Source: Slackia heliotrinireducens DSM 20476
GTDB lineage: Bacteria > Actinomycetota > Coriobacteriia > Coriobacteriales > Eggerthellaceae
Direction: 5' to 3'
Assembly: GCF_000023885.1 (NCBI RefSeq)
Contig: NC_013165.1
Location: 2,480,001-2,544,000 of the forward strand
DNA length: 64,000 nucleotides
The notes beneath the pieces are model-generated. The model had not been told where the DNA came from. It saw nothing but the letters and a program-made list of their open reading frames with translations, and ran no database searches. Each line of letters opens with the position of its first letter. The first letter of the stretch is position 1. Made by a program: the position numbers and the translations under genes. Positions 36,382 to 52,881 of this stretch are shown here, in pieces.

Positions 36382-37569
36382 ATGGCTCGCATACAAGACG
36401 TCTACGGACTCTTCGAAAAAATTCAGAGCGCCGACATCTCGGTGTACCAGCAGCGTTGCGTCGCCGTGCGCAACCGCAATGCCTCGTGCATGCGCTGTGC
36501 CGATGCCTGCACCTCGGGCGCCATATCCATCCAGAACAACGAGCTGGTCATCTCGCCTGAAAGGTGCATCGGATGCGGCACCTGCGCCACCGTCTGTCCG
36601 ACCTGCGCCTTGGAGGCCCACAGGCCTAACGACGCCGAGCTGCAGAAAGCCGCCGTTGCAGCTATGCAGGCAAACGACGGCGTGGCCGTGCTGGCCTGCC
36701 GCAGAATCGTCGACTCCGCCCGTGACCTGGTGGATGCCAAGAAGATAGTCGCGGTTGAGTGCCTCGGCCGCATAGAGGAATCGCTGGTCACATCCCTGGT
36801 CGTTGCCGGAGCACGCAAGATTGTCATGGTCAAGTCCGACTGCGAGGCATGCGAGCACACGAAAGGCCTGTCCACCGCCTGCGCCGTACGCGACACCTCA
36901 AACGAGCTGCTGCGCGTCTGGCAGAACCCGGTCCGCGTGGAGATTTCCGACAAGTTCCCCGGCTCAGTGCGAGCCACAGAGAAGGCCCCCTACGACGAAC
37001 GACGCCGCAACTTCTTCTTCCGCGCGAAGGACGAGGCGACCCGCGTCGCGGGCATCGCCGCAGACGAAGCCGCGAAAAAGACCTTAGGGATCGAAGACGC
37101 CCCTGAACCGCCCCGCTACGTCAAGGTCATGGACGATGGAACGTTGCCCCATTTCATCCCCGACCGCCGTGAACGACTGTTGGATAACCTGGCTGAACTG
37201 GGCGAACCTCTCGACGAGCTCATCGAGACGCGGCTGTGGGGGCATGTGGTCATCGATCCGGACACTTGCATTTCCTGCCGCATGTGCGCGACGTTCTGCC
37301 CCACCGGCGCCATACAGAAATTCGACGACGAAGACGGCACCATCGGCATCGACCACTATCCCGGCGACTGCGTGCGCTGCCGTTGCTGCGAGGACATATG
37401 CCCCAGCAACGCCCTCACCCTGTATGACGAGGTTCTTGCCGAAGACCTGCTTTCGGGCGGGGTGGAACACAACGTCATGCATCCACCGAAATACGATATG
37501 TCCAGCTCGAAGCGAACCCGCACGATGTTCCGCGACATCCTCGGCTGCGAAGACATCTTCGATCGATAG
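36382..37569 (+). CDS. Polyferredoxin with a MvhD/HdrA-like central part
   Basis: The 395-residue protein has two pairs of ferredoxin motifs. The first (residues 36-72) has CMRC-x3-C and CIGC-x2-C-x3-CP. The last (296-340) has CISC-x2-C-x3-CP and CVRC-x2-C-x3-CP. Between them lies an ACRR, ECLGRI, KSDCEACEHTKG pattern at residues 105-162, recalling the delta subunit of methyl-viologen-reducing hydrogenase. It is soluble, with no signal peptide, so it would move electrons in the cytoplasm, perhaps for maturation or for feeding the molybdoenzyme. It is read with the UvrD-like gene 9 bases later; AAAGAGG precedes ATG 36382. Confidence 0.85.
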   Translation: MARIQDVYGLFEKIQSADISVYQQRCVAVRNRNASCMRCADACTSGAISIQNNELVISPERCIGCGTCATVCPTCALEAHRPNDAELQKAAVAAMQANDGVAVLACRRIVDSARDLVDAKKIVAVECLGRIEESLVTSLVVAGARKIVMVKSDCEACEHTKGLSTACAVRDTSNELLRVWQNPVRVEISDKFPGSVRATEKAPYDERRRNFFFRAKDEATRVAGIAADEAAKKTLGIEDAPEPPRYVKVMDDGTLPHFIPDRRERLLDNLAELGEPLDELIETRLWGHVVIDPDTCISCRMCATFCPTGAIQKFDDEDGTIGIDHYPGDCVRCRCCEDICPSNALTLYDEVLAEDLLSGGVEHNVMHPPKYDMSSSKRTRTMFRDILGCEDIFDR

Positions 37570-37578
37570 GAGCCCGCC

Positions 37579-39429
37579 ATGCAACGACTCGACATGGAGC
37601 AGGCCCTTGCAGCCGCGACGGCCACGATGCGCGTGACCGCACCCGTCGGAGCCGGCAAGACGGAGTTTCTGATCCGCCACGCCTGTGCGCTTGTGCAGAA
37701 CGGCCTGCGCCCCAGCAGCATCTGCCTTGTGGTCAACTCCGAAATGGCCAAGCTTGCCGCCAAACGCCGCCTGTCGCAGACCTCGGCGGCAGGCGTGCGC
37801 ATCACCACAGCCCGGGAGCTTGCCCTGCAGGTCCTGTCGCTGCCCGAGGCCCGCACCGTCATCGGCCGCAGCCCTCGCGCGGCTACCAAACAAGAGGTCT
37901 CCTTCATCCTGACCGACCTGCGCCTTACGGGCATCGATTCGAATACGCTCCGGAAAGTCGTGGCCGATCCGACGGCGAAGCCGGACTCCCCCGATGGGCA
38001 ACGCGCCCGCGATGTCCTGTTCGACCTGTTGAAACGCTACGACATCCTACTCGATTGCGAAGTTGCGCCCTCAGCCGTTCAGGCGCTCGGGTCTTTGGCC
38101 GAGGTGCCGGAGCGCCTGCGGTTCCAGGCGGTACTCGTCGACGATTATCAGAATCTGTCTGCCGCATCGCAGGCCCTGTGCGAAATGATGGCCCGCGAAC
38201 GTTTCGTCGTCGCTGGCAACGCGGACCAGTTCATCGATGGGTTCGACACGAACCCCAACCCCCGCGGTCTCACGGATTTCGAAACGGGCAGGCCCGATGC
38301 CGCAAGCATAGAGCTTGAAGCGCCAGACACCGCCTATCCGCGCATTCGGGCCTTTGCGCAGGCCGCCCTCACTCAGGACTCGTCCGCGTTCGACAGGCTT
38401 GTCGAATCGGGGGCGGTCGAGCCCGACGACGACCATGCGGTCCTGGTCAAATGGCGGACGCCCGCAGATGAGATGGCGAACCTGCCCGATGTGGTGCGCC
38501 GCCTGCTGGCCGCCGAGGAGGGCCTTGTGCCTCGCGACCTATGCATCGTCACGCCGAACCACACCTGGACGCGAAGCGCCCTCAAAATGTTCAAGCGCGC
38601 GAAAATCGCCGCCACCGCCGCCCAAGGCAACGACCCTTTGCGCGGCGACCCCCGCAGGCAGGACGCAAGCGGCATGCTGGAGGCGTTCGTGCGCGCCCAT
38701 CTGCTGGCAGACAGAAACGACCTGATGGCATGGCGGATGTGGTTGGGCCTTGGCAGGCGCGACCTGGCCAGCAAGGACTTCGCCGCCCTGGCGGATGCCG
38801 CGCAAGACCACGCCGCCGAACTTGCGGCCATGCTGAACGGGAATGCCGAGCTGTCCGCCGACACGCCGCCTGAACTGCGCGCACGCATTGCCGAAGGACG
38901 CGCTCTTATTGCGCGATCCGCCGAAAAGCAGGGCTACTCGCTCATCATGGCCTGCATGCCCGAACTGGACGAGGACTTCGAAAGCCTGGTGGGTGAGCTG
39001 AAGGGTTCCGAAACCGCCGCCGAGCTGGCGGCGACGCTGCGAAAGCACGTCTTCTCCCCGGTCGTGTCCGCCGACCCGGCTTGCGTCGTCATCACTCCCT
39101 ACCGGCAGCTGCAAGGCCTGAGCCCCAAGGCGATCGTGGTCCTGGGGGCGGTCGAAGGCCTCATGCCCGCCGCCGCGCAGCTCGACGGCGAGCGCCAGGC
39201 GCAAGCCGCACGCCGCCTGTTCTGCAACGCTGTCGGCAAGGCGCAAAACCGCCTGGTCGTATCCACTTTCCAGAAGGCACCGGCCGCATTCGCCGAACAG
39301 TTCCGCCTGGTGGAGAAACGCCGCAAGGCAGAACGCGGCCAGACCATGGCCATGCTCGCCCGCACCCGGTTCGTCGACGACGCGGGAAACGCGGCCCCGC
39401 CCAGCCAAAGCGGCGAGCAGTTCGTCTAA
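37579..39429 (+). CDS. Diverged UvrD/AddB-like SF1 helicase-fold protein 1
   Basis: The 616-residue protein has a Walker A loop APVGAGKT (residues 21-28) and a Walker B VLVDDYQNLS (about 185-194, Asp-Asp in place of Asp-Glu). It has a motif V-like region (VITPYRQLQGLSPKAIVVLG) and, where UvrD proteins have a conserved RRLFYVAxTRA, the form RRLFCNAVGKAQ, with Lys instead of the motif VI Arg. ATP binding is likely but unwinding is doubtful. AGGAGC precedes ATG 37579, 9 bases after the polyferredoxin. A paralogue at 46254-48209 shares TARELA, DDYQxLSxASQ and the same motif VI change. Its position suggests a role in the respiratory island, not general repair. Confidence 0.8.
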   Translation: MQRLDMEQALAAATATMRVTAPVGAGKTEFLIRHACALVQNGLRPSSICLVVNSEMAKLAAKRRLSQTSAAGVRITTARELALQVLSLPEARTVIGRSPRAATKQEVSFILTDLRLTGIDSNTLRKVVADPTAKPDSPDGQRARDVLFDLLKRYDILLDCEVAPSAVQALGSLAEVPERLRFQAVLVDDYQNLSAASQALCEMMARERFVVAGNADQFIDGFDTNPNPRGLTDFETGRPDAASIELEAPDTAYPRIRAFAQAALTQDSSAFDRLVESGAVEPDDDHAVLVKWRTPADEMANLPDVVRRLLAAEEGLVPRDLCIVTPNHTWTRSALKMFKRAKIAATAAQGNDPLRGDPRRQDASGMLEAFVRAHLLADRNDLMAWRMWLGLGRRDLASKDFAALADAAQDHAAELAAMLNGNAELSADTPPELRARIAEGRALIARSAEKQGYSLIMACMPELDEDFESLVGELKGSETAAELAATLRKHVFSPVVSADPACVVITPYRQLQGLSPKAIVVLGAVEGLMPAAAQLDGERQAQAARRLFCNAVGKAQNRLVVSTFQKAPAAFAEQFRLVEKRRKAERGQTMAMLARTRFVDDAGNAAPPSQSGEQFV

Positions 39430-39433
39430 CCGA

Positions 39434-39461
39434 AAAAGCCCGGCTGTGCGCCGGGCTTTCC
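39434..39461. terminator. Bidirectional terminator between convergent genes
   Basis: AAAAAGCCCGG and CCGGGCTTTC flank a seven-base loop. A-run and T-run on either side fit termination of both the UvrD-like gene and the LuxR gene. Confidence 0.85.
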
Positions 39462-39482
39462 CATACTTGTATGCATGCGGGG

Positions 39483-40991
39483 TTACTTTCGCTCGATCTT
39501 GTCGAGAAACTCCTGCTTGGTGTGGACGTCCATCTTCTGGTAGATATGCTGCAGATGCGTGGTCACGGTTCCGCGGGACAGCACCAGCTCCTCCTGGATG
39601 CGGGCGCTCGTGCGACCCTTCGCGAACAACATCATGACCTCGGTTTCGCGGGGCGTCAGGCCGTACTCTTCCGCAACCTCCTTGCAGCGGTCCTTGAACG
39701 GCGTCGGATGGTTCGCCTGCGGTCCTTCGCCCGAGGATGGGCTTTCCGGCCCGTCTTCTTCGTCGGCCCCGTCCTCCTCATCCATCTTCGTGATGTCGAT
39801 CATGTCGTCCTCGCGCAGGATAAACAGGTACGACCACAGCACCATAAGAGTGCAGACCAGGGCGGCAAGGCTCACCGCCTGCGGCGTGAACTCGATGGCA
39901 CCCACGACCCAGGTGGAGACGATCTGACCGCATGCCACACCCAGCGTGACCATGCCCCAGCCCACGCCGAACACCACCATAGACGACAAGCGGTACGTGT
40001 AGGAAGTCTCGGCCAGCACCATCCAGATGATGACGTTGAAGCAGTTGTAGCTGATCAGAGCGAAGGTTCCGTCCTTGACGGACGTGCCTGCCAGAACCGG
40101 CAGCAGCAGGATGAAGAACGCCATGATGAACATGACGAACTTGTACATGGCACGGGTGGTGCCGTCTTTCGCCAGAAGGTGGTACCCCACCAGAAGCGTC
40201 ATCATAACCAGGCAGCTCAGAATCATGCCGGGCTGGTAGAAGTCCATAGGCGCGATATGGTTGATGTGCATGTAAATCTGCCTGATGAGGCTGTCGGCGG
40301 TTCCCACCAGAAATGCGCAGGCACCGATGCGCCACGTGAACTCCGACACTTGCATGGGCACGGCCTTGACGGAGGGCTCGCGGCCAGGCTCCCAGACATG
40401 GTTCACGGTCAGGTACACATAAGCCGACGCCAGCGGCAGAACCATCGCCACCATAAACGTCGCTGCCGGCGGCATCAGCATCATCGTGGCGTAGATGCAT
40501 GCCGCGTAAAACGTCGCCACGGGAATCTCGATGTGGGTGTCATCTGGCGGCACGTTGCGGTAGATTTCGCCGTAGCCAAGATCGATGATGCCCGACCCAA
40601 GGCCCGTCAGAATGCCGCACAAAAGACCCGTAAGCTCCATGGGTATGTGGGTGGTGAACATGAGGAACGCGCACAGCGTGCCCAGAACGGTGAGGACCGG
40701 GCCCATCCAACGGCGGATCGGATGCGTGTTGAACCTCAGAAACCATTCCTCACGCATGGCGGCGGCGAACAGCACGCAGCACAACGTGATGGACGAAATC
40801 ATGTACACCTGCGGCGGAATGGCCTCGCCTGTAAGCGTGAACGTGCTTGACGCGGCACCTAGGAACAGCAGGAACACCCACGCGCGTTGGAATGCGAAAC
40901 CGAGGATGCGGGCGTTGAGAAACGAGCTGACCGACAATTCGGCGATGCGTTTGTCCAGTGTCTCCTTGTCGACAATACGACGGAATGCCAT
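39483..40991 (-). CDS. Membrane-embedded LuxR-family transcriptional regulator
   Basis: The 502-residue protein has 11-12 helices over the first 410 residues, an acidic linker (MDEEDGADEEDGPESP) and a LuxR helix-turn-helix at the C-terminus (EYGLTPRETEVMMLFAKG, then RIQEELVLSRGTVTTHLQHI). Such one-component membrane regulators are abundant in Eggerthellaceae and often lie beside the enzyme they control. It is divergent from the molybdoenzyme gene with 379 bases between them, including a perfect TGCAT palindrome. The likely signal is the enzyme's substrate at or in the membrane. Start ATG 40991 has AAGGGGGG, rather far (11 bases) upstream. Confidence 0.92.
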   Translation of the reverse strand: MAFRRIVDKETLDKRIAELSVSSFLNARILGFAFQRAWVFLLFLGAASSTFTLTGEAIPPQVYMISSITLCCVLFAAAMREEWFLRFNTHPIRRWMGPVLTVLGTLCAFLMFTTHIPMELTGLLCGILTGLGSGIIDLGYGEIYRNVPPDDTHIEIPVATFYAACIYATMMLMPPAATFMVAMVLPLASAYVYLTVNHVWEPGREPSVKAVPMQVSEFTWRIGACAFLVGTADSLIRQIYMHINHIAPMDFYQPGMILSCLVMMTLLVGYHLLAKDGTTRAMYKFVMFIMAFFILLLPVLAGTSVKDGTFALISYNCFNVIIWMVLAETSYTYRLSSMVVFGVGWGMVTLGVACGQIVSTWVVGAIEFTPQAVSLAALVCTLMVLWSYLFILREDDMIDITKMDEEDGADEEDGPESPSSGEGPQANHPTPFKDRCKEVAEEYGLTPRETEVMMLFAKGRTSARIQEELVLSRGTVTTHLQHIYQKMDVHTKQEFLDKIERK

Positions 40992-41130
40992 GCCCGTTTG
41001 ACCCCCCTTCCCCCTCTGAATGCAGTGCTAAGCGCGGTAAGTGTATTCTACCATCCGAATAGAATGCCTTCAGCGGTCCGAGATGAGTCGCCTTTTCCCT
41101 ACTATGCGGTTCATCTGGGATGATTCAAAA

Positions 41131-41149
41131 ATCATGCATAATGCATGAT
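41131..41149. promoter_or_regulatory. Perfect 19-bp palindrome, probable operator
   Basis: ATCATGCAT-A-ATGCATGAT has 9-base arms around one central base, 55-75 bases upstream of a TACAAT. Placement and symmetry suit binding of a dimeric LuxR-type regulator; related TGCATAAT words occur before arcA. Confidence 0.62.
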
Positions 41150-41168
41150 GCCTCATGCAGCCTCTAAG

Positions 41169-41186
41169 AAGCATTGCATGATGCTT
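41169..41186. promoter_or_regulatory. Second TGCAT-containing inverted repeat
   Basis: AAGCAT-TGCATG-ATGCTT has six-base arms and lies 20 bases after the first palindrome, closer to the presumed promoter. Spacing of about two helical turns fits cooperative sites. Confidence 0.45.
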
Positions 41187-41370
41187 TTACAACCCACAAA
41201 TCGTACAATACGGGGGATGTTGGGCGAAGTCTGCCTTCAGCCCGCAATCAAGAGGGGGACAGTTCGAAACACGCCGACCCATGACATGCCGAGGGGGCTA
41301 ACGGCTGGCATGCTCACGCGTATCCTCGTTCTTTCCCAGGGGATTTCAGTAAGAGAAGGAGGAGGAATCA

Positions 41371-44300
41371 ATGGGTAAATTGACCATGACGCGCCGCTCG
41401 TTCGCGAAGCTGTCTGCAATGACCATCGCCGCAGCTGCCGTTGCGGAATCGGTCGTCCCCGCCGCCGTCCTTGCCGACGACGCCGCTGCAGACGAATCCG
41501 CCGGCGAAATCAAGCGTATCCGTTCTTGCTGCCGTGGTTGCGGCAAGATGGAATGCGGCGTTTGGGTCACCGTCCAGAACGGACGCGTCATCAAGACCGA
41601 AGGCGACCAGTCTTCGTTCCAGTCGTCCGGCAACCATTGCTCCAAGGGCCAGGCATCCATTCAGGCATGCTACCACCCCGCTCGCATGTACCATCCCATG
41701 AAGCGCACGAACCCCAAGGGCGAAGATCCCGGCTGGGTCCGCATCTCGTGGGAAGAGGCGATGGATACCATCGGCGAGAAGTTCAACGAGGCCATCAACC
41801 AGTACGGCGGGCAGACCTGCTTCGGCATGTGCGGCACGTCCCGTCAGTGGGTGTACGGCCCCTACGCATTCTACAAGTGGCTGTTCGATAGCCCCAACGC
41901 CCACGTAGCATCCTCGATCTGCAAGGGCCCCCGTCGTCTGATGGGCTGGCTCACCTCCATCGACGGCGCGCCTTGGTTCGCCCTGCGCGACGGCCCGCGC
42001 GTCTACGTCCAGTGGGGCACCGCTCCCGAGAACTCCAACTACGACGACTCCTGCCGTAACATCGTCGACAAGATGACCGAGGCCGACGTGCACATCTGCA
42101 TCGACCCGCGCCTGTCCGGTTCTGGCAAGGAAGCCGACTACTGGCTGAACCTGGAGCCCGCCACCGACGGCGCCCTGGCGCTGTGCTGGCAGCACATCAT
42201 CCTCGAGCATGACCTGGTCGACTGGGAATTCGTGAAGCGCTGGACCAACGCCCCCATCCTGGTAGTCGAAGACATGGAGCCCACGGGCGGCCGTTACTTC
42301 ACGCTGTCCACGGCGCTCACCGTGGCCCCTGCGGACCTGCTCGGCGAGAAGCTGAAGACCCGCCTGCTCAAGGAGAGCGACCTGGTCGAAGGCGGCAGCT
42401 GCCGTAAGTTCATGGCTTGGAACAAGAAGGCCAACGACGGCAAGGGCGGCCTGACCTATTGGGACACCGACGCCACGCAGTGGGAAGGCTGCCATCACAC
42501 GGCGCCCACCCGCGACCAGATGGAAGTCATCTACGAAGGAACCTCCCAGGAAGGCTACCTGCCTCCGCTGTCCTACCACGAGCTGGAAGAAGCCGGCATC
42601 GACTTCGACCTGTACGAGGCCCACGAGGTCACGCTGGCCGACGGCACCAAGCACATGGCCCGTCCGGTTTGGGCGTACTTCGCCGACTCCGTCAAGGATT
42701 GCACCGTCGAATGGTGCTCCGAGATCACCAAGCTCGATCCGAAGCTGATCGAAGAGTCCTGCCTCGCCTGGGCGACCCGCCCCGAAGGCCAGTCCTACGG
42801 CAACGGCGGCATCCATCTGAACCTGTCGCCTGACCAGGAAGGCAACTGCACGCAGACCGTGCGCGCCATCCTGAACCTGTCCTACACCACGGGCAACTTC
42901 GACGGCCCCGCCGGCAACCGCGGCCTGTCCCGCACCCCTGTCGACGAGCAATCCACCGCCGCTCCCGGCTCCAACATGCCGCAGAACGTCAAGAAGCAGC
43001 TCAAGGGTCTGGGCGTACCGATTCCGTACTACCCCGACGAGCAGATTGACATGATGAACATCCCCGACACCTACGAGACCTATTCCAACATGGTCGGTGC
43101 CGACAAGTTCCCGCTGCTCGCGCTGTACAACGAATGGGCCGACCCCGCCAGCATCTTCGAGGCCATCCTCACCGGCGATCCCTATCCGATCCGCGTCGGC
43201 ATCAACGAGGCCGGTTCGTTCATGAACCAGTGCAACGCCAACATGGCCTGGGACGCCCTGTCCAAGCTGGACTTCTGGGTTGACCTGAACATGTTCCACC
43301 ATCCCTCCACCGAGATGGCCGACATCGTTCTGCCCGTCGCCCACTGGCTCGAGATCAACAACATCCGCGTGTCGCAGGGCGCTTCCGGCGGCATCGGCAT
43401 GACCTGCCGTGCGGTCGACCCGCCGGCCGACGCCAAGTTCGACTACGACGTCAACCGCCTGCTGTACGAATCCTTCGAGAAGCAGGGCAACATCAACGGT
43501 ATCTGGACCAACATCGCTGCCGACGGCCCCGGCGCCTACGAAAGCGACGAGCGTCTGGAAGAGTGGTTCCGCGCCCACAACGAGGTGGACGGCTTCGACG
43601 CCCGTTACCCCGGCTGCAAGTGGCAGCACATGCAGGACTACGTGGACGACTTCCAGGAGCATGGCTGGTTCAACGCCAAGGTCCTGGAGCCCAACCGTTG
43701 GGGCACCTACCGTCGTTTCGAGACCGGCTGGATGCGCATGGGCAAGGACGCCTGCACCGCCGCTCCCTGGAGCGCCGACGAGAACGGCCAGCCCACCGAC
43801 GCCAACTTCGGCTGCCCGACCCCTTCGGGCCTGGTCGAAATCTGGCCGATGATGTTCGAATACTACTGCCTCGACAAGGCCAACGAGTTCGAGCCCGGCA
43901 AGTTCGACGTCATGAAGGAAATCATGCCGAACTACGAACCCTGCGTCTCCGCCCCCGGCGGCGAATGGGAGACCGAGACCTCCGCTGAGGAGTACCCGAT
44001 CATCCTCACCACCGGCCGCCGCATCCCGGTGTACTTCCACTCCGAGCATCGCCAGCTCCCCTGGTGCCGCGAACTGTGGCCGGCCCCGCGTCTGGAGCTC
44101 AACCCCGTGGACGCCGAGAAGCTGGGTCTGCAGCAGGGCGACTGGGCCTGGATCGAAGTGGAGCCCCACACCGAGATGGGCAAGAAGTACTGCTCCGCCA
44201 TCCGCGAGGTCGTAGACATCTACGAAGGTATCGCCCCTGGCTGGGCCAACGCCGAGCACGGCTGGTGGTATCCCGAGCTGCCGGCTCCGACCCATGGTTT

Positions 44301-44532
44301 CGACCTGGTCAACGCCGAATGCCTGTGGGATCCCGAGGCCCGCGACAAGTTCATCGCAAGCTCGCACATGCGCGGCGTCCGCTGCAAGATCTACAAGGCC
44401 ACGGCCGAGAACAGCCCCAACGGCAACCCGATTCCGTGCGCCAACGAAGACGGCACCCAGATCATCTACGACAGCAGCGATCCTCGCCTGAAGGAATGGC
44501 TGCCTGATTACGACATCCGGAAGGAGGCGTAA
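41371..44532 (+). CDS. Tat-exported molybdopterin oxidoreductase (DMSO-reductase family)
   Basis: The 1053-residue catalytic subunit has a twin-arginine signal (MTRRSFAKLSAMTIAAAAVA). A [4Fe-4S] site follows (Cys 54, 57, 62 and 90; CRGCGKMECGVWV then HCSKGQ), then the bis-MGD body. The residue in the usual metal-ligand position appears to be Cys184 (SSICKGPRR). The CRGCGKMECGVWV and SICKGPR signatures resemble, from memory, the large Eggerthella/Gordonibacter group that includes catechol dehydroxylases. The substrate is thus probably a small aromatic or other reducible compound, but this is inference. GAAGGAGGAGG precedes ATG 41371. DmsB- and DmsC-like genes follow at 3 and -1 bases. Confidence 0.93.
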   Translation: MGKLTMTRRSFAKLSAMTIAAAAVAESVVPAAVLADDAAADESAGEIKRIRSCCRGCGKMECGVWVTVQNGRVIKTEGDQSSFQSSGNHCSKGQASIQACYHPARMYHPMKRTNPKGEDPGWVRISWEEAMDTIGEKFNEAINQYGGQTCFGMCGTSRQWVYGPYAFYKWLFDSPNAHVASSICKGPRRLMGWLTSIDGAPWFALRDGPRVYVQWGTAPENSNYDDSCRNIVDKMTEADVHICIDPRLSGSGKEADYWLNLEPATDGALALCWQHIILEHDLVDWEFVKRWTNAPILVVEDMEPTGGRYFTLSTALTVAPADLLGEKLKTRLLKESDLVEGGSCRKFMAWNKKANDGKGGLTYWDTDATQWEGCHHTAPTRDQMEVIYEGTSQEGYLPPLSYHELEEAGIDFDLYEAHEVTLADGTKHMARPVWAYFADSVKDCTVEWCSEITKLDPKLIEESCLAWATRPEGQSYGNGGIHLNLSPDQEGNCTQTVRAILNLSYTTGNFDGPAGNRGLSRTPVDEQSTAAPGSNMPQNVKKQLKGLGVPIPYYPDEQIDMMNIPDTYETYSNMVGADKFPLLALYNEWADPASIFEAILTGDPYPIRVGINEAGSFMNQCNANMAWDALSKLDFWVDLNMFHHPSTEMADIVLPVAHWLEINNIRVSQGASGGIGMTCRAVDPPADAKFDYDVNRLLYESFEKQGNINGIWTNIAADGPGAYESDERLEEWFRAHNEVDGFDARYPGCKWQHMQDYVDDFQEHGWFNAKVLEPNRWGTYRRFETGWMRMGKDACTAAPWSADENGQPTDANFGCPTPSGLVEIWPMMFEYYCLDKANEFEPGKFDVMKEIMPNYEPCVSAPGGEWETETSAEEYPIILTTGRRIPVYFHSEHRQLPWCRELWPAPRLELNPVDAEKLGLQQGDWAWIEVEPHTEMGKKYCSAIREVVDIYEGIAPGWANAEHGWWYPELPAPTHGFDLVNAECLWDPEARDKFIASSHMRGVRCKIYKATAENSPNGNPIPCANEDGTQIIYDSSDPRLKEWLPDYDIRKEA

Positions 44533-44535
44533 ATC

Positions 44536-45216
44536 ATGGCCCAATACTCCATCCTGACCGACCTCAACCGCTGCGTCGGCTGCATGTCCTGCATGGTTGC
44601 TTGCAAGGCGATCAACGACGTGCCCATCGGAAACTATTGGAACAAGATTCTGCGCATCGGCCCTTACAAGCGTGAGGACTATCAGACGCCGAACGATGTC
44701 GACATGTACTACCTGTGCGTGCAGTGCCAGCATTGCGCCGACCCCAAGTGCGTCGCCGTCTGCCCCACCAAGGCTTCCCAGAAGATGGAAGACGGCACCG
44801 TCCAGATCGACAAGTCGAAGTGCATCGGCTGCCAGTTCTGCGTTATGGCCTGCCCCTACGGCGTCCGTTACCTCAACGAGGAGGAGCGCGTCGTCGAGAA
44901 GTGCACGATGTGCGAGCAGCTCATCGCCCAGGGCGGTCTGCCCCAGTGCGTCGTGCAGTGCGGCGGCCGTGCCCGCTTCTTCGGCGATCTGGACAACGGC
45001 ATCGAATCCTTCGAGGCCCCGGACATCGCCTACATCGCCGATCGCGACAATAACGACTTCAGTTATGACCAGCTGTATACCGGCAACCGCATCACCTTCG
45101 GCGAGCTCGCCGAAGAATACAACCAGGACACGGACGTTCACCGTCTGCCCGATGCGGGCAACGAGCCGAGCTTCGTGTATGTGCTGCGCGGACGTGAATG
45201 GAAGGGAGCTGAATAA
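44536..45216 (+). CDS. DmsB-like four-cluster ferredoxin subunit
   Basis: The 226-residue protein carries 16 Cys in four ferredoxin motifs: CVGCMSCMVAC (12-22), LCVQCQHCADPKCVAVCP, CIGCQFCVMACP and CTMCEQL with PQCVVQCGG. It would carry electrons from the membrane anchor to the molybdenum subunit. It has no signal of its own and would be co-exported with the Tat-dependent catalytic subunit. Three bases separate it from that gene, and its stop overlaps the anchor start (TAATG). The short tail after residue 170 lacks the long extension of some DmsB proteins. Confidence 0.93.
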   Translation: MAQYSILTDLNRCVGCMSCMVACKAINDVPIGNYWNKILRIGPYKREDYQTPNDVDMYYLCVQCQHCADPKCVAVCPTKASQKMEDGTVQIDKSKCIGCQFCVMACPYGVRYLNEEERVVEKCTMCEQLIAQGGLPQCVVQCGGRARFFGDLDNGIESFEAPDIAYIADRDNNDFSYDQLYTGNRITFGELAEEYNQDTDVHRLPDAGNEPSFVYVLRGREWKGAE

Positions 45217-46085
45217 TGGAACTTCAATGGCCTCTCATTCTCTTCACCACGCTGTTAGCCTGGTGCGCCGGCACCTTCGCCACCCAGGCTTACCTGGCCC
45301 TCAAGGGCAAAGGTGAGAGCATCCAAATGCCCGCATGGATCGCTTCTGTGGTCCTGCTGGCGGTTGGCGGCATCGCCGTGTTCTTCCACCTGCAGCATTG
45401 GGAGCGCATCTTCAACGGCTTCGGACACCTGTCCTCCGGCATTACCCAAGAGCTCATCGCCATTGTGGTCCTGGCGGTCATCGCCGTCATCTACCTGGCT
45501 ATGATCAGGCGTAACGAGGGCAAGGTCCCGTCCTGGCTGGCCATCGCGTCCATCGTCGTGAGCGTCGTCTTGGTCGTCGTGATGGGCCACTCCTACATGA
45601 TGGAAGCCCGTCCCGCATGGAACAACATCCTGTGGATTGTCTCGCTGCTCGGCGCCTCCTGCGTGCTGGGTCCCGCGACCGTGGCAACCATCGCCGCCAT
45701 CAAGGGCGAAGATGCTTCCGACCTAGCGATGCCCGCGCTCATCGGCGCCGTCATCAACGCCGTGGCGTCCGTCGCCGCCGGCCTGAGTGTCGGGGCTGCC
45801 AACAGCGCCCTGACCGACGTGGGCTACTACTTCGACCTGACCCATCCCACCATGGAGCTGCTGAGCCCCGAGCTCAGCGCCTTCAGCGGGGCCAGTGCCC
45901 TGCCCATGATTCTGGGCGTCATCATCATCGGAGCCATCTGCCCGATCGTCGCCGCCTTCATGGGTAAGAAGTCCGGCAATTGGAAGATGTGGGGACCCAT
46001 CGCAGTGGTGTGCGCCGTGATCGGTGCTATCTGCCTGCGTGTGGTGTTCTACTACGCCGGCGTGTCCATGTTCATGTTCTACTAA
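45216..46085 (+). CDS. DmsC-like membrane anchor subunit
   Basis: The 289-residue protein has eight predicted helices, beginning LQWPLILFTTLLAWCAGTFA, with HLQHWERIFNGFGHLSSGIT after helix 2 (a DmsC pattern) and MMEARPAWNN. It would take electrons from menaquinol and pass them to the DmsB-like subunit, holding the enzyme to the outer face of the membrane. No haem ligand pattern is obvious. The ATG overlaps the previous stop codon by one base, indicating coupled synthesis in equal amounts. It is the last gene of the operon, followed by two hairpins. Confidence 0.9.
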   Translation: MELQWPLILFTTLLAWCAGTFATQAYLALKGKGESIQMPAWIASVVLLAVGGIAVFFHLQHWERIFNGFGHLSSGITQELIAIVVLAVIAVIYLAMIRRNEGKVPSWLAIASIVVSVVLVVVMGHSYMMEARPAWNNILWIVSLLGASCVLGPATVATIAAIKGEDASDLAMPALIGAVINAVASVAAGLSVGAANSALTDVGYYFDLTHPTMELLSPELSAFSGASALPMILGVIIIGAICPIVAAFMGKKSGNWKMWGPIAVVCAVIGAICLRVVFYYAGVSMFMFY

Positions 46086-46096
46086 GAACAACCTGA

Positions 46097-46122
46097 TGGG
46101 GACCGGGTTTTCCCGGTCCCCA
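46097..46122 (+). terminator. First hairpin after the molybdoenzyme operon
   Basis: TGGGGACCGGG/CCCGGTCCCCA is a perfect 11-bp stem with a TTTT loop, 12 bases after the stop. The T-run after it is absent; the following hairpin probably completes termination. Confidence 0.6.
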
Positions 46123-46126
46123 TACG

Positions 46127-46203
46127 AAAGCCCCGCCTGAGTGCGGCTCGTGTTCCCCAGCCCCATGCAAATGACGAGCCGCATTCCGACGGGGCTTTCT
46201 TTA
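46127..46203. terminator. Long terminator hairpin
   Basis: AAAGCCCCG and CGGGGCTTT form the base, with an inner GAGTGCGGCTCGT/ACGAGCCGCATTC stem, followed by CTTTA. It separates the molybdoenzyme operon from the convergent UvrD-like gene 2. Confidence 0.75.
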
Positions 46204-46253
46204 TGCCCTGCGAATGCCTTGCCGGCGGCTGCCCGCCGGCCGATATGCGGTTG

Positions 46254-48209
46254 TTAGAAGTACACCTCGGGAATATCCTCCCCTTTGATGCAGTTCAGCA
46301 CCAGGCTCTTGGAAAGACGGGCATGCCTCTCGCCGTCTTGGGCGTAGAAGCGCTCAACGCGCAAGCCTTGCCGCTCGGCGTCGGTCCCGCGCGCCGTGGT
46401 GAAGTACGTCATGGCCGCACGCTGCATGCCCTTGGAAAGGGCGGCCATGTATATGCGCGCGTCGCCGGCAAGCATCTTTCGGGCCTGCTCAGGACTGGTT
46501 TTCGTGCGGTCGAAATACGCATGTTTGGGGGACAGCCCGTTCACCATTCCCATAAACACCACGGCCTTCGGGTTCATGCCGATGACGCGTTCGCGGGTCA
46601 CCACCTTGACGTAGGGTATGGGGTGTGTAGCCGGATAGAACATGTTGGCGTGTGCGTTTTTCAGCATGGCGGCCGCAGATTCGTCGAACATATCCTCGCT
46701 GAACAGGTCGTCGATAGTCGAGCCCACGCTCGCAGCGGGACCGCAAACCAGCTTTGTCGCCGCCGACTTCAGCATATAACCCTCAAGCGGCCGCAGATGC
46801 TCAAGATGCTCCTGAAGCAACTCGTACCTATCAGCAGCCTTGCGCATCTCGTTTCCGTACACCACAGGTGCAACGCCCTCGGGAAGGTCGCCGCCCTGCA
46901 GGCTGCGGGAAAGAACCGCCAGCGCCTCGTCCATGGAAAGGCCGACGGATTCCATGCAAGTATACACCTCCGTGAACGCCGAGCGGCAGGTCAGCTCGTC
47001 CCCGAATCCGCACCACGCACGAAGCGACGGTTCGTCGCCCGGGTCCGCGGCCAGCGTCAGCAGGCAGGCCGTCTGCGCCGGCAGACAGGATTTTTCGAAG
47101 CGCACGTCACCGCCGATGTTGCCCCTGGTACCTACGCTGCTCGCGGCGACGCCCCGGTCGAGCAGCCTCACCAGAACGTTGAGCTCCCAGGTCTTGTTAG
47201 GAACCACCACAGCGACATCCTCGGGACTGAGCCCTTCGCTGAGCCTCGCCTGCACCCACTCGATCACGCGCTCGCACTCTTCGGCGGGTGTTGCGGTTTC
47301 GATGATCTCGAAACCGCCATCGACCTGCGTACCGTTCGCCATCGTGACGGGAATCTCCATCCCCTCGAAATCGGGATGCTCGGCGGCAAGCTCCGAAAGG
47401 CTGCCGACCGCCGCTGCCGTGTCGGTCGGCAGGTGGCTTTCTGACAGCATGACCACGTCTGCCTGAGGCACCTGGGCCTTCAGCTCGTCGATGCCTTTGG
47501 CATAGGGGAAGCTGTCGAACACCTGAACGCAGGCCAGCGGATTGCCGGCCGCGAAAAGCTTCTCGCCGGCAAGCGCGCAGACCAGATACTGCGACGCACG
47601 GCTCAGCATCTGGTAGTCATCCGCGAACACGTACTTGAACTGCGCTTTCGCCAACTCGGCAGGACATTCGGACAGGAATCGGAACGCCATGTTGGAAATC
47701 TCCGGCTCGATGTAGGCGCCATACAGGCCCAGCAGGCGTTTGAGCTGCGCGTGGTTCTCTTCCTCCTCTTTGTATATAAGCCAGCCCTCTTCGAAATCGG
47801 CCAGCTCGGTCCAGCTGCGGTAGAAGAAACCCGTCAGCTCGGCGATGCGCTTGGGACGCAGTCCGCTCACCTTCATATCCTCCATGAGGAAGCTTTCCTC
47901 ATACCGCGCAAGCTGCCGAGGTTTTCGGCCGGTGGCAGCGCAGGCCCCAGGCGTCGCAAGCACGGACATGGCCAGTTCGCGGGCGGTGCGCACGCCGACG
48001 AACTGCGAAGCGCCTTGGCTGGAGAAGGCCAGCAGACGCCGGGTGGGCTCCACGGCTTCAGGCTGCGCCACGACGACCAGGATGTCTTCTGCGGAAACGC
48101 CCTGATCCAGCAGGGCCGCCACCTCTAAGGCGAGCTTCTGCGTCTTACCCGTCTTGCATCCGCCTTCGAAAAGCTTGACGGCGGGTACGCGGGGAAATTC
48201 CAAAACCAT
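46254..48209 (-). CDS. Diverged UvrD/AddB-like SF1 helicase-fold protein 2
   Basis: The 651-residue paralogue of the protein at 37579 has Walker A GGCKTGKT (16-23), Walker B VFADDYQMLS (about 194-203), a motif V-like stretch VVTRERVIGMNPKAVVFMG, and MAALSKGMQ in place of motif VI, again with Lys where Arg is expected. Shared blocks with the first copy include RTARELAMSVLA and RASQYLV. ATPase activity is plausible; strand separation is doubtful. Start ATG 48209 has GAAAGGA 6 bases upstream. It ends convergently with the molybdoenzyme operon, and an 18-bp terminator stem separates it from the NapH-like gene, so it probably has its own promoter. Confidence 0.8.
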   Translation of the reverse strand: MVLEFPRVPAVKLFEGGCKTGKTQKLALEVAALLDQGVSAEDILVVVAQPEAVEPTRRLLAFSSQGASQFVGVRTARELAMSVLATPGACAATGRKPRQLARYEESFLMEDMKVSGLRPKRIAELTGFFYRSWTELADFEEGWLIYKEEEENHAQLKRLLGLYGAYIEPEISNMAFRFLSECPAELAKAQFKYVFADDYQMLSRASQYLVCALAGEKLFAAGNPLACVQVFDSFPYAKGIDELKAQVPQADVVMLSESHLPTDTAAAVGSLSELAAEHPDFEGMEIPVTMANGTQVDGGFEIIETATPAEECERVIEWVQARLSEGLSPEDVAVVVPNKTWELNVLVRLLDRGVAASSVGTRGNIGGDVRFEKSCLPAQTACLLTLAADPGDEPSLRAWCGFGDELTCRSAFTEVYTCMESVGLSMDEALAVLSRSLQGGDLPEGVAPVVYGNEMRKAADRYELLQEHLEHLRPLEGYMLKSAATKLVCGPAASVGSTIDDLFSEDMFDESAAAMLKNAHANMFYPATHPIPYVKVVTRERVIGMNPKAVVFMGMVNGLSPKHAYFDRTKTSPEQARKMLAGDARIYMAALSKGMQRAAMTYFTTARGTDAERQGLRVERFYAQDGERHARLSKSLVLNCIKGEDIPEVYF

Positions 48210-48275
48210 ATCGGTCCTTTCGATAATCGGCCCTGCTTCTCATGCCTGCCGGCATCGAATGGGCACAGGATAACC

Positions 48276-48333
48276 CAGAAAGAAAGCGACTCACCCCGAA
48301 ACGAGGCCCCATGCATGAGTCGCTTTCTTTCTG
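48276..48333 (-). terminator. 18-bp perfect terminator stem
   Basis: CAGAAAGAAAGCGACTCA (48276-48293) and TGAGTCGCTTTCTTTCTG (48316-48333) are perfectly complementary. On the minus strand the stem ends in TTTCTTTCTG, 45 bases after the NapH-like gene. The arm is unusually long. Confidence 0.65.
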
Positions 48334-48378
48334 AGACCTCGGACGCGGAAGGATACGCCCGAGGTCGGGGAGAAAGAC

Positions 48379-49320
48379 TTATTCTTCAGCCTTGGCGACC
48401 ACGACAGGTTCGCTGCTGGACTTCGGCAGGAACGGCATCGCGATGGCGCTGCCCGGGCAGGCCTCGACGCACTTGCGGCATTTGGTGCACTCGCTGAAGT
48501 TGGCGCCGCGCTCAGGGTGCCGCGGGTCGATGCCCTGGTCGCACACCTTGCGGCACACTCCGCAAGAGGTTCCCTTGACGTTTTCGACGCAGGATGATGC
48601 GTCGACGGTAGGAACGAAAGTCCGGTTCGCCTTGCCGATAAGGCTCATCAAGGCGGACACGGGGCAGATATGGCTGCACCACTTACGGAAGAACACGACT
48701 TCGACCAGCAGCAATGCAGGAACCAGCACCACAGACCAGGTGACGTCGCCATGGCCGAACAGGCCCATGAGCAGAAACACCGTGGCGAAGGTCAGGCCGA
48801 TGGGACATACCAGGCAGAATACCGGGAATCCGAAGACGGCCGTGGACAGCAGCGCACCGCCCAGCACCAGATGCCGGGAATCGACCTGGCCTTTGCCGGC
48901 CAGCGAACCGCATCCGCGGCTGCAGGCCTTCAGGCCGGCGATTTCCGCATCGGTCAGCGGAGCCACGTCCCTGTCAAGCTCTCGCTTGGAACGCTCGGCG
49001 CGCTCGGCGCTTTCCAGGTCCTGCTTGCGCGAAAACGCGTTGCGCAGCTCCGACACCACAGGAACCGGGCAGATCCAGCCGCAGAACGCACGGCCGAGCA
49101 GGACGATGAGCACGACGGCGATGACGAACGCGATAACCACACGGGGAATCAGGGTTTTGGTGGCGAGCAGCGTCGCCAGCGAGCCGAGCGGGCACAGCAG
49201 CGCGATGTCGGACCAGCCGAATGCGGAGAGCGTGCCCACCGGGGCGTACGCCGCGTAGGCGACGGCAATGACGACGAAGATGACGATGGGCGCAGCCATG
49301 CGGATCTTATTGGATTTCAT
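48379..49320 (-). CDS. NapH-like membrane iron-sulphur protein
   Basis: The 313-residue protein has six helices with the NapH/CcoG-type CxxxCP signatures: GRAFCGWICPVPVVSELRN, FPVFCLVCPIG and KWCSHICPVS. Two C-terminal ferredoxin motifs follow (SCGVCRKVCDQGIDP and ECTKCRKCVEACPGSA). It would move electrons from the quinone pool to periplasmic-side iron-sulphur partners. It follows the NapG-like gene by 12 bases. No napA-like gene is present, so the pair probably serves the molybdoenzyme at 41371 or another reductase. Confidence 0.88.
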   Translation of the reverse strand: MKSNKIRMAAPIVIFVVIAVAYAAYAPVGTLSAFGWSDIALLCPLGSLATLLATKTLIPRVVIAFVIAVVLIVLLGRAFCGWICPVPVVSELRNAFSRKQDLESAERAERSKRELDRDVAPLTDAEIAGLKACSRGCGSLAGKGQVDSRHLVLGGALLSTAVFGFPVFCLVCPIGLTFATVFLLMGLFGHGDVTWSVVLVPALLLVEVVFFRKWCSHICPVSALMSLIGKANRTFVPTVDASSCVENVKGTSCGVCRKVCDQGIDPRHPERGANFSECTKCRKCVEACPGSAIAMPFLPKSSSEPVVVAKAEE

Positions 49321-49332
49321 CGCGACCCTCCT

Positions 49333-49992
49333 TTACCGTTCGATCGGCTTGACGACGATGGCGCGGTCGGTCATGCCTGCGACCACGGAAGCGTCCTGCA
49401 TGGACACGCACACCGTGTAGCACAGGCCGCAGCCGTTGCATTTGTCTTCGATTACATGCGGGATGTTGTTCTCATCCATCTCCATCGCCTCGTAGGGGCA
49501 GGCGTCGTAGCAGAACCGGCACCCCTTGAAGCGGTAGGCCAAACACCAGTCCTTGTTGATTTCGGCGATGCCTAGAATGGTGTTTTCGGGGGTTGCGTCC
49601 GCAGGCAGTTTCAACGCCTGGGTCGGACAGGCGGCCACGCACAGCGGCACACCGTCGTTTTCCTCGGTGCACCAGTCGCAGTAGTCGAGCGCGTAATCCA
49701 TTGTAGGCGTGCGGAGATTGATGAATCCGTCCTCCACGTGGGTCGGCGCAATAACGCGGCGCGGACATGCTTCGATGCACTTCTCGCAACGGATGCACGC
49801 CCCCAGCATGAGGTCTTCGTCCTGTCCTCCCGGAGGGCGCACCACGGCGTTGGCAGCAAGGGGCTTCAACGTGCCCAAGCCCAAGGCCACCGCCGCGCCG
49901 CCCGCGCCGATGAGCAGCGTGCGCCTCGACATGCCGGCATAAGTCCGTTCCTTTTCTTCCTGCTGCGTGTTCTTGTTGGGCTCGTCAGACAT
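49333..49992 (-). CDS. NapG-like Tat-exported four-cluster ferredoxin
   Basis: The 219-residue protein begins with a cytoplasmic tail and a twin-arginine signal (GMSRRTLLIGAGGAAVALGL). Ferredoxin motifs follow: CIRCEKCIEACPRR, YCDWCTEENDGVPLCVAACP, GCRFCYDACP and CNGCGLCYTVC, the NapG/DmsB-like layout. It would accept electrons from the NapH-like membrane protein outside the membrane. It lies 12 bases from the TorD gene upstream. ATG 49992 is supported by the frame; GGGGCGAT upstream gives a weak ribosome site. Confidence 0.88.
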   Translation of the reverse strand: MSDEPNKNTQQEEKERTYAGMSRRTLLIGAGGAAVALGLGTLKPLAANAVVRPPGGQDEDLMLGACIRCEKCIEACPRRVIAPTHVEDGFINLRTPTMDYALDYCDWCTEENDGVPLCVAACPTQALKLPADATPENTILGIAEINKDWCLAYRFKGCRFCYDACPYEAMEMDENNIPHVIEDKCNGCGLCYTVCVSMQDASVVAGMTDRAIVVKPIER

Positions 49993-50004
49993 TGGCTATC
50001 GCCC

Positions 50005-50724
50005 CTATTCGTCTTCTTCAACTTCGGTCAGCATGTCCAGCAAGTACTCTTTGTCGGTTTCCAAAAAACCATCGGTAAGGTAGGAAAGCGCCAGGTAGAA
50101 ATCGGTTTTCGCGAAGCGTCGCATATCCACGGTAAGCAAGGGCGCCCAAGAGAGCAGATGGTCCTGGAGGAAATTCAGCTGGGCAACCATCAAATCGTAT
50201 GCCGTATCCTCGTTGCCCGATTCCAACGCTGCGGCGATGCGTTCGCTCAGCACCTTCATGAACTCCAGCTCCAGCGCGATGTGGTCCTCCCCTTCGCGCC
50301 AGCTCTCGTCCTTTGACAGGCCGTAGGCGCGGTAAATCGCCAGCACCTCGTCGCGGGCATCCTGCATCATCAGGCGCTTTTCCGACGTGTAGACACTCTC
50401 GAAGGGGAACGCCGCCCCGTCAAGCTGGTTGGTGCTGCCGATGAACACGCGCACGTAATCGACGGCAAGCTCGGTGATGGTGTTGTCCCATGCACGGCTC
50501 AGGTAGCGGGCCAGCATCAAGAACCCTTTGTCGGAGTCCTCGTTGCCCGTGGCCGCCGGGAAGCGCATCCCACGCATTGCCTCGAGCTGCTCCCTGTCGA
50601 TTTCCACGCGGTACATACGCGCCAGCAGCCCGTAGGTCGCGGCACGTTGGTGGTTCAGCTTCGCCAGGTCGGCAAGGTATGCGGCCTCTTCCTCCGCCGC
50701 CGTGGTCTCAAGTTCGTCTGCCAT
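50005..50724 (-). CDS. TorD-family molybdoenzyme chaperone
   Basis: The 239-residue all-helical protein fits the TorD/DmsD family: LARMYRVEIDREQLEAMRG, VDYVRVFIGSTN (the Y-x3-F pattern followed by PFESVYTSEKRLMMQD), and EDHIALELEFM (the E-D-H-[IL] signature). Such chaperones bind the Tat signal of the molybdenum subunit until the cofactor is inserted. The natural client is the enzyme at 41371. Start ATG 50724 has GAAGGGGG upstream; a longer frame exists. It lies in the middle of a minus-strand maturation operon. Confidence 0.88.
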   Translation of the reverse strand: MADELETTAAEEEAAYLADLAKLNHQRAATYGLLARMYRVEIDREQLEAMRGMRFPAATGNEDSDKGFLMLARYLSRAWDNTITELAVDYVRVFIGSTNQLDGAAFPFESVYTSEKRLMMQDARDEVLAIYRAYGLSKDESWREGEDHIALELEFMKVLSERIAAALESGNEDTAYDLMVAQLNFLQDHLLSWAPLLTVDMRRFAKTDFYLALSYLTDGFLETDKEYLLDMLTEVEEDE

Positions 50725-50768
50725 GGTTCCCCCTTCAGATGGTCGTTCGGTCATAGGCCGCATAAAGC

Positions 50769-51617
50769 CTAGTCATCGGCCTGTTCGGCCGCATCGAGCT
50801 CGGCGATGATATCCAACCCCTCGCTGCCGATGTCTGTGATTCTCCATGCGTTGTCGCGCCATTCCAGCGCGTCGTTTTGGGCAAGGCGCTCCGCGAAGCG
50901 CATGGCGTACATACGCGGGTGCATGAGCGCTGGGTCATTGTCCAAAGCCGCGGACAAGGCCTTCTGGGTGGTGCCGCCGTCGGGCGCGCACATTTCGAGC
51001 ACGGTACGGAACACGTGACGGTACTGGGGTTCGTTCTCCAGGAGCTCGCGCAGGCGGGCGCGCGGCTGGTCGGCGGCGACCACTTGCGAACCTTCCGGCG
51101 TGGTCAACCAGCAGATCTGCGGCGCTTGGACCGGCTCCAGATACTCGACGCCGTCGATGACGACGCGCTTGGGCTCCAACGTGTCCTCGATGTCTTCATA
51201 GTCGGTGCCGTCCTGCGTGACGCGGCGCAACGCCCCGGCACGCACCAGCATCATGCACATGTTGTCCGGCGTATAGACGCTTTTGTTGTTGGCTTTAAGC
51301 TTTTCGATACGGCTGATGACCAGCTCGTTTGGCTGCACCTGGCCGTCGCACATCTCCAGGATGCCCAACAGGATCTTGCGGGAGCGCTCCATGTGGTCGA
51401 ACAGCGTCGCGATGCGCTGCGCGGCAGGAGCCTGTTGGAGGGCCTCAGCCTGGCTGGCCAGCTCGTCAACAGTGGGAAACTCGCCGGGTTCGACAAGGAA
51501 CATGCCGCTTTCCGCAGGCGCTTCGAGGTCGAATTCCTCGTCTTCGGTGTCGGCCAAGGGGTCGTAGCTGTCGAAATCCTCAACGGGAGTGAGATCGAAA
51601 AAATCATCTTGGGTCAT
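50769..51617 (-). CDS. Protein of unknown function heading the TorD operon
   Basis: No family recognised with certainty. The 282-residue product has a very acidic start (DFFDLTPVEDFDSYDPLADT), then helical segments. NELVISRIEKLKANNKSVYT together with MCMMLVRAGALRRVTQDGTD looks like a winged-helix domain; RMYAMRFAERLAQNDALEWR followed by WRITDIG looks like a second. No Cys motif or membrane helix is present. The gene lies 44 bases before torD and is read with torD, napG-like and napH-like genes, so a role in expression or assembly of the molybdoenzyme is likely. A DNA-binding function is possible but not shown. Confidence 0.72.
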   Translation of the reverse strand: MTQDDFFDLTPVEDFDSYDPLADTEDEEFDLEAPAESGMFLVEPGEFPTVDELASQAEALQQAPAAQRIATLFDHMERSRKILLGILEMCDGQVQPNELVISRIEKLKANNKSVYTPDNMCMMLVRAGALRRVTQDGTDYEDIEDTLEPKRVVIDGVEYLEPVQAPQICWLTTPEGSQVVAADQPRARLRELLENEPQYRHVFRTVLEMCAPDGGTTQKALSAALDNDPALMHPRMYAMRFAERLAQNDALEWRDNAWRITDIGSEGLDIIAELDAAEQADD

Positions 51618-52880: not shown

Positions 52881-52881
52881 G

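Follow-up and report, generated by a model that had tools for sequence, protein, structure and literature searches.

Degenerate UvrD-like proteins flanking a catechol-dehydroxylase-type operon in Slackia heliotrinireducens: most likely pseudo-helicase scaffolds for molybdoenzyme expression or maturation

Two genes for UvrD-like proteins, here called D1 and D2, flank a molybdoenzyme operon in a 64,000-nucleotide window of Slackia heliotrinireducens DSM 20476 (NC_013165.1, positions 2,480,001-2,544,000; genome of 3,165,038 bases in a single contig; coordinates are in window numbering unless another genome or locus is named). D1 lies at 37579-39429 on the forward strand (616 amino acids [aa]) and D2 at 46254-48209 on the reverse strand (651 aa), as originally predicted from the sequence. 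Both are "D" accessory proteins of the kit that serves the Eggerthella-type molybdenum catechol dehydroxylases, and belong to one family with DadhD of Eggerthella lenta. They probably help to make a molybdoenzyme rather than to repair DNA, most likely as pseudo-helicase scaffolds for enzyme expression or maturation, a mechanism that is inferred here from degenerate motifs, genomic linkage, and published deletions. Three points are new: D proteins are disarmed helicases, DadhD cannot be a normal ATP-driven helicase, and a second, sometimes shortened D protein recurs. A search of the available literature found no paper that makes these points; among the papers listed, the name DadhD is used for this protein in PMC11887054 only.

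Fold and motifs of the D proteins

D1 and D2 are homologous over their full lengths (27% identity, E 9e-40), and their assignment to the UvrD-like proteins has been borne out. A profile of the family matches UvrD/PcrA structures with E 7e-32, and the structure model of D2 (predicted local distance difference test [pLDDT] 92.8, predicted template modelling score 0.92, 35 sequences) has the complete 1A-1B-2A-2B fold of UvrD. This model aligns with the UvrD-DNA-ADPNP complex at Z 27.7 over 573 residues, with AddB at Z about 19, and with HelD at Z 16.6, the last over the core only. The Pfam UvrD family is matched above its cut-off by D1 (37.7 bits) and below it by D2 (16.5 bits). Both proteins carry Walker A (PVGAGKT in D1, GCKTGKT in D2), DDYQ, TARELA, and a G(L/M)xPKA(I/V)V block. 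These shared blocks were listed in the original prediction, where only the last needs correction, as the exact form GLxPKA is absent from D2, which has GM in place of GL. The replacement of the motif VI arginine by lysine, also part of that prediction, is present in both (NAVGKAQ and AALSKGM). In addition, the motif IV arginine is replaced by proline, and the catalytic glutamate of motif II (DExQ) is missing, DDYQ standing in its place.

These losses extend through the family. In an alignment of 71 family sequences with S. heliotrinireducens PcrA, the motif II glutamate is kept in only 2 (65 have aspartate), the motif IV arginine in none (60 have proline), and the motif VI arginine in 5 (47 have lysine). 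The residues that contact DNA, the Trp-Arg pair of motif III and the His-Ser-Ser-Lys of motif V, are mostly replaced, while a new tryptophan (VPNxxW) is kept in 68. The family is also acidic, with a median charge of -19 versus -6 for S. heliotrinireducens PcrA. Walker A is kept in 57 of the 71, a count from a single alignment in which one sequence whose reading frame is broken at that point (L065) was scored as being without the motif, and nearly all sequences keep the two acidic residues of Walker B.

The P-loop is absent from a clade of nine members, which includes DadhD itself and another copy in the S. heliotrinireducens genome (L024). At the P-loop site DadhD reads CLCVEHDASDDVAPALL, and none of the frames immediately upstream encodes a P-loop. 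Close pairs within this clade have ratios of nonsynonymous to synonymous substitution (dN/dS) of 0.11-0.29; consequently, the P-loop-less members are under purifying selection and are not pseudogenes. Given the losses in motifs II, IV, and VI, together with the missing P-loop of DadhD, the labels "helicase" and "ATPase" are both doubtful. Thus, the earlier suggestion that D1 and D2 are ATPases must be regarded with reserve, and DadhD, judged by its sequence, cannot be an ordinary ATP-driven helicase. On this reading the family descends from UvrD/PcrA helicases; it keeps their fold but has lost the residues that hydrolysis of ATP and unwinding of strands require. A 650-aa relative (L086) has intact helicase motifs (DEYQ, HKSKGL, AITRA); it is encoded by genome G057, the one occurrence of the family in another order of the class, and it is possibly a link to the active ancestor.

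Association with catechol dehydroxylases

D1 and D2 bracket a LuxR-family regulator and a three-gene molybdoenzyme operon of the dimethyl sulfoxide reductase family (PF00384/PF01568, Fer4, DmsC), and the DadhD-type kit at 36382-51617 is complete (E, F, G, H, I, LuxR, and enzyme A-B-C):

36382-37569, forward: polyferredoxin, DadhI-like, 395 aa, with Fer4 domains; homologues at S. heliotrinireducens loci L022-L024/L171 and in the accessory sets of the E. lenta dadh and cadh clusters
37579-39429, forward: D1, UvrD-like pseudo-helicase of the first type, 616 aa (PF00580, 37.7 bits); in a tree group with Slackia second copies
39483-40991, reverse: LuxR-family regulator, DadR-like, 502 aa, with a long N-terminal region and a GerE domain; a LuxR type with 12 transmembrane segments is described in PMC9734109
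41371-44532, forward: molybdopterin catalytic subunit, catechol-dehydroxylase subfamily, 1053 aa (PF00384/PF01568/PF04879); 74% identity to E. lenta DSM 2243 642823-645918
44536-45216, forward: iron-sulfur electron-transfer subunit, DadhB-like, 226 aa (Fer4_11; top NCBIfam match DmsB)
45216-46085, forward: membrane anchor subunit, DmsC/DadhC-like, 289 aa (PF04976, DmsC)
46254-48209, reverse: D2, UvrD-like pseudo-helicase, DadhD-like, 651 aa, assigned by homology, structure model, and motif losses
48379-49320, reverse: NapH-like membrane ferredoxin, DadhH-like, 313 aa (Fer4_5; top NCBIfam match NapH)
49333-49992, reverse: NapG-like ferredoxin, DadhG-like, 219 aa (top NCBIfam match NapG)
50005-50763, reverse: TorD-like chaperone, DadhF-like, 252 aa (PF02613; NCBIfam TorD)
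50769-51617, reverse: DadhE-like protein, 282 aa, with an acidic tail and two winged-helix-like domains (structure model, pLDDT 88.5)

The operon contexts first proposed for the two proteins hold: D1 starts 9 bp past the polyferredoxin gene, and D2 lies 169 bp downstream of NapH on the same strand, as the last gene of the E-F-G-H operon (282-aa protein, TorD, NapG, NapH). Directly past the kit, two tandem open reading frames (ORFs; 51843-52898 and 52882-54009) resemble, by eye, succinylglutamate desuccinylase/aspartoacylase-type proteins.

The E. lenta dopamine dehydroxylase cluster has been described as DadhABC, the regulators DadR/S, DadhD (helicase domain), DadhE (hypothetical), DadhF (TorD-like), DadhG/H (NapG/H-like), and DadhI (ferredoxin) (PMC11887054, 2025). 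In E. lenta VPI 0255 / DSM 2243 (G070), the published full-length dadh primers (PMC7028382) match exactly at L127:6045-9098; residue 506 is serine, which marks the inactive Dadh variant (PMC9734109). Past dadh lie DadR, DadS, a D gene at 607633-609495, and then E, F, G, H, and I. This D gene is dadhD, and its product is of the same family as the window proteins, since a single family model matches D1, D2, the other S. heliotrinireducens paralogues, and DadhD (382 bits), and all fall in one tree. E. lenta has a second accessory set (626.6-633.4 kb), followed by five catalytic subunits, an arrangement that fits the description of the cadh cluster in PMC11887054. The window enzyme is 74% identical to the second of these five catechol dehydroxylases (642823-645918), probably Elen_0501, (+)-Eddh, to judge from the gene order. 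This identity is just under the 75% homologue cut-off of PMC11887054. By sequence, the window enzyme falls within the group of characterised Eggerthella-type catechol dehydroxylases, and catechol dehydroxylation is its putative activity.

Deletions in Gordonibacter urolithinfaciens have shown that each of D-H is indispensable for dehydroxylase activity (PMC11887054). Without dadhD or dadR, Dadh was no longer expressed, as measured by Dadh protein, whereas E-H deletions left the protein present (PMC11887054). Since the accessory genes D-I were named, and deleted one at a time, in 2025 (PMC11887054), the accessory system is not an undescribed one, contrary to the original proposal.

The S. heliotrinireducens genome encodes five family proteins, all adjoining four large molybdoenzymes of one subfamily. 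There are about 26 molybdopterin-enzyme genes in this genome, and the family proteins occur at four loci, each with the same accessory kit. Two molybdopterin-enzyme genes (genome positions 2797038-2798315 and 2419216-2420928) hold one in-frame TGA each, reminiscent of selenocysteine formate dehydrogenases. S. heliotrinireducens is known for the reductive cleavage of pyrrolizidine alkaloids (PMC3035243), for which the four subfamily enzymes are speculative candidates.

A survey profile built from the five paralogues scores 200-914 bits over the full length of D-family proteins, but only 40-62 bits against ordinary PcrA/UvrD helicases. With this profile, the family was found in 48 of 138 Eggerthellaceae genomes. 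A sample of 396 genomes from across the phylum held it in only 9, all but one of them Eggerthellaceae. Sixty-four D neighbourhoods were fetched, and those of at least 18 kb (55) were compared with 38 windows taken from these genomes as controls. A catalytic subunit of the subfamily is present in 44 of the 55 and in none of the controls (Fisher p 1.8e-16, inflated by the shared ancestry of the genomes). At least one kit gene is present in 54 of the 55 (E in 46, TorD in 46, NapG in 50, NapH in 48, polyferredoxin in 43), again versus none of the controls, 4 of which hold other molybdoenzymes. Homologues are therefore not scattered without regard to molybdoenzyme loci. Among the 138 Eggerthellaceae, the D family and the enzyme subfamily are both present in 42 genomes, both absent from 86, and found singly in 4 and 6 (odds ratio 150, with p-values inflated by shared ancestry). 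In three of the six genomes with D but no detected enzyme, a distant enzyme below the search cut-off nevertheless adjoins D (L041, L049, L059). At three orphan D loci (L029, L030, L053), tblastn found no remnant of the enzyme within about 10 kb. In Slackia sp. ZJ119 (L029:8945-10876 and L141), the sole companion of D is a divergent polyferredoxin gene, and the enzyme of this class that the genome does have lies far away.

It could be argued that the D proteins are ordinary DNA-repair helicases that are neighbours by chance or hitchhikers on a mobile island, as the UvrD fold and the Pfam match of D1 might suggest. Yet the linkage and co-occurrence with the enzyme, the loss of catalytic residues, the phenotype of the dadhD deletion (PMC11887054), and a separate S. 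heliotrinireducens PcrA with intact motifs (L025) all speak against this, and such a role is hardly credible. Chance adjacency and DNA repair were accordingly rejected on sequence evidence (linkage, co-occurrence, and motif loss). Taken together, the five paralogues, the linkage and co-occurrence within the Eggerthellaceae, and the dependence of Dadh protein on DadhD (PMC11887054) uphold the original idea that these proteins were recruited to the molybdoenzyme class; nothing, however, points to the export role that was offered with it.

Scaffold, switch, or motor

In the model favoured here, which is held with somewhat better than even confidence, D proteins would act in trans as non-hydrolysing scaffolds or dedicated chaperones. 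Such a scaffold would allow the catalytic subunit to be made, or to stay stable, until the cofactor is inserted, and D would probably work together with the E protein. Action in trans is suggested by the complete genome G264, in which D lies at 1.74 Mb and the only detected enzyme of this class at 0.55 Mb, a distance of 1.19 Mb, and by E. lenta, in which five enzymes, each under its own regulation, share one accessory set (PMC11887054). For the same two reasons, a role restricted in cis to the local DNA was considered unlikely.

The presence of two D proteins is not peculiar to the window. D1 groups with second copies from two other Slackia genomes (97% support), in which two D genes likewise flank the enzyme operon. 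A syntenic D1 orthologue in Adlercreutzia (L038:1214-2227), 11 bp after the polyferredoxin gene, is only 337 aa long and aligns to D1 residues 247-616; consequently, the ATP-binding half (1A) is absent. Five other loci (L069:5470-6039, L071:5007-5606, and L074-L076) have a full-length D after NapH and, immediately upstream of E, a D-like ORF of 189-440 aa. For the shortest two of these ORFs (189 and 199 aa), the alignment covers nothing but stretches of the second RecA-like domain. Such second D genes are thus cut down to their C-terminal half or to that domain. In the window, D1 is probably a partner of D2, and its C-terminal half would be the essential part.

The DadhE-like protein matches no Pfam family above cut-off, and DadhE is called unannotated in the literature. 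In its model, a low-confidence acidic tail accompanies two winged-helix-like domains, one of them, at the C-terminus, similar to PadR regulators (Z 9.9 over 85 residues) and the other, at the N-terminus, so judged from secondary structure only. Because both domains are acidic, DNA binding is not obvious. A DNA-binding regulator, which the winged-helix domains had brought to mind, was rejected on these grounds and because deletion of dadhE leaves Dadh expressed (PMC11887054).

Several results sit less comfortably with the scaffold model. Because Walker A and B are retained, many members could bind nucleotide and hydrolyse it slowly. Three genomes have the enzyme with E, F, G, and H, yet a D gene was detected nowhere in them (L168-L170), and D is therefore not universally needed; these clusters are natural D-less systems, and some enzymes manage without D. 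D distances correlate with those of E (Spearman 0.67 over 30 loci) and NapH (0.69) more than with those of the catalytic subunit (0.28), which speaks for the model, but these values are uncorrected for shared ancestry, and evolution of D in step with E and NapH is a lead only. Furthermore, the published deletion test measured Dadh protein, which leaves room for a role in transcription or on mRNA.

It is in this last direction that the authors of that study looked, proposing that DadhD, a predicted helicase, has the locus or its mRNA as its target (PMC11887054). If so, D would be a working nucleic-acid motor that permits expression by engaging the dehydroxylase locus while it is transcribed, or the resulting message, and this would accord with the loss of Dadh protein in the dadhD deletion but not in those of E-H, as well as with the full UvrD fold and the widely kept P-loop. 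However, DadhD, the very protein tested, has no P-loop, the family is acidic and has lost the arginines of motifs IV and VI and the DNA-contact residues of motifs III and V, the Adlercreutzia orthologue of D1 is without the motor half, and a single E. lenta set suffices for five separately regulated enzymes. A motor of this kind seems distinctly improbable.

Alternatively, D might be an ATP-switched chaperone, in which the catalytic subunit is loaded or released by means of ATP binding, not of unwinding, while members without a P-loop use another partner or work independently of ATP. P-loop loss is mainly confined to one clade, and the recurrence of two D types per locus may, by analogy, recall AddAB-like pairs with one inactive subunit. 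Nevertheless, loss of both gamma-phosphate arginines runs through the family, and the only tested member sits in the P-loop-less clade, so that a switch as the general mechanism is unlikely. Within the scaffold model itself, nucleotide binding may still serve as a switch where the P-loop persists, as in D1 and D2. A broader and more tentative proposal, for which the odds fall a little short of even, is that the whole DadhD family is a disarmed UvrD lineage of ATP-independent molybdoenzyme-biogenesis scaffolds, with a second, sometimes shortened paralogue and an acidic winged-helix E protein, in which a nucleic-acid-binding ancestry would have given rise to a metalloenzyme maturation complex.

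Significance and comparison with known systems

Gut Coriobacteriia use catechol dehydroxylases to process dopamine, catechins, and lignans; these enzymes cannot be produced in standard hosts, partly for want of known roles for the accessory proteins. The sole published idea found for D is that of a helicase on the gene or mRNA. On the present evidence, DadhD cannot be an ordinary ATP-driven helicase; the question shifts to protein stability and assembly, and this is open to the existing genetics of E. lenta and Gordonibacter.

The closest known system is the DadhD-I set of E. lenta (PMC11887054), which shares with the window a homologous D and the neighbours E, F, G/H, I, LuxR, and enzyme A-B-C; the window differs in gene order and in carrying D in two versions, each with a P-loop, whereas DadhD has lost its own. 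The UvrD/PcrA/Rep helicases of superfamily 1A (SF1A) resemble D2 in their four-domain fold and are detectably homologous, but the D family has lost the motif II glutamate, the motif IV and VI arginines, and the DNA-contact residues, is acidic, and is found beside molybdoenzymes. HelD, a factor that recycles RNA polymerase, shares the superfamily 1 core with D2; however, HelD has a long N-terminal arm, for which there is no room in D2, with its P-loop at residues 16-23, and HelD-like recycling was rejected for this reason. TorD, DmsD, and NarJ are, like D, dedicated accessory proteins of the same molybdoenzyme superfamily, but they have an unrelated fold, and the window has an additional TorD-like gene. 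AddB and RecC, the inactivated helicase subunits of AddAB and RecBCD, are SF1 folds that have become scaffolds. The likeness of D2 to AddB is structural; unlike AddB and RecC, however, the D family has neither a nuclease domain nor an AddA partner, and it is tied to genes of respiration rather than repair.

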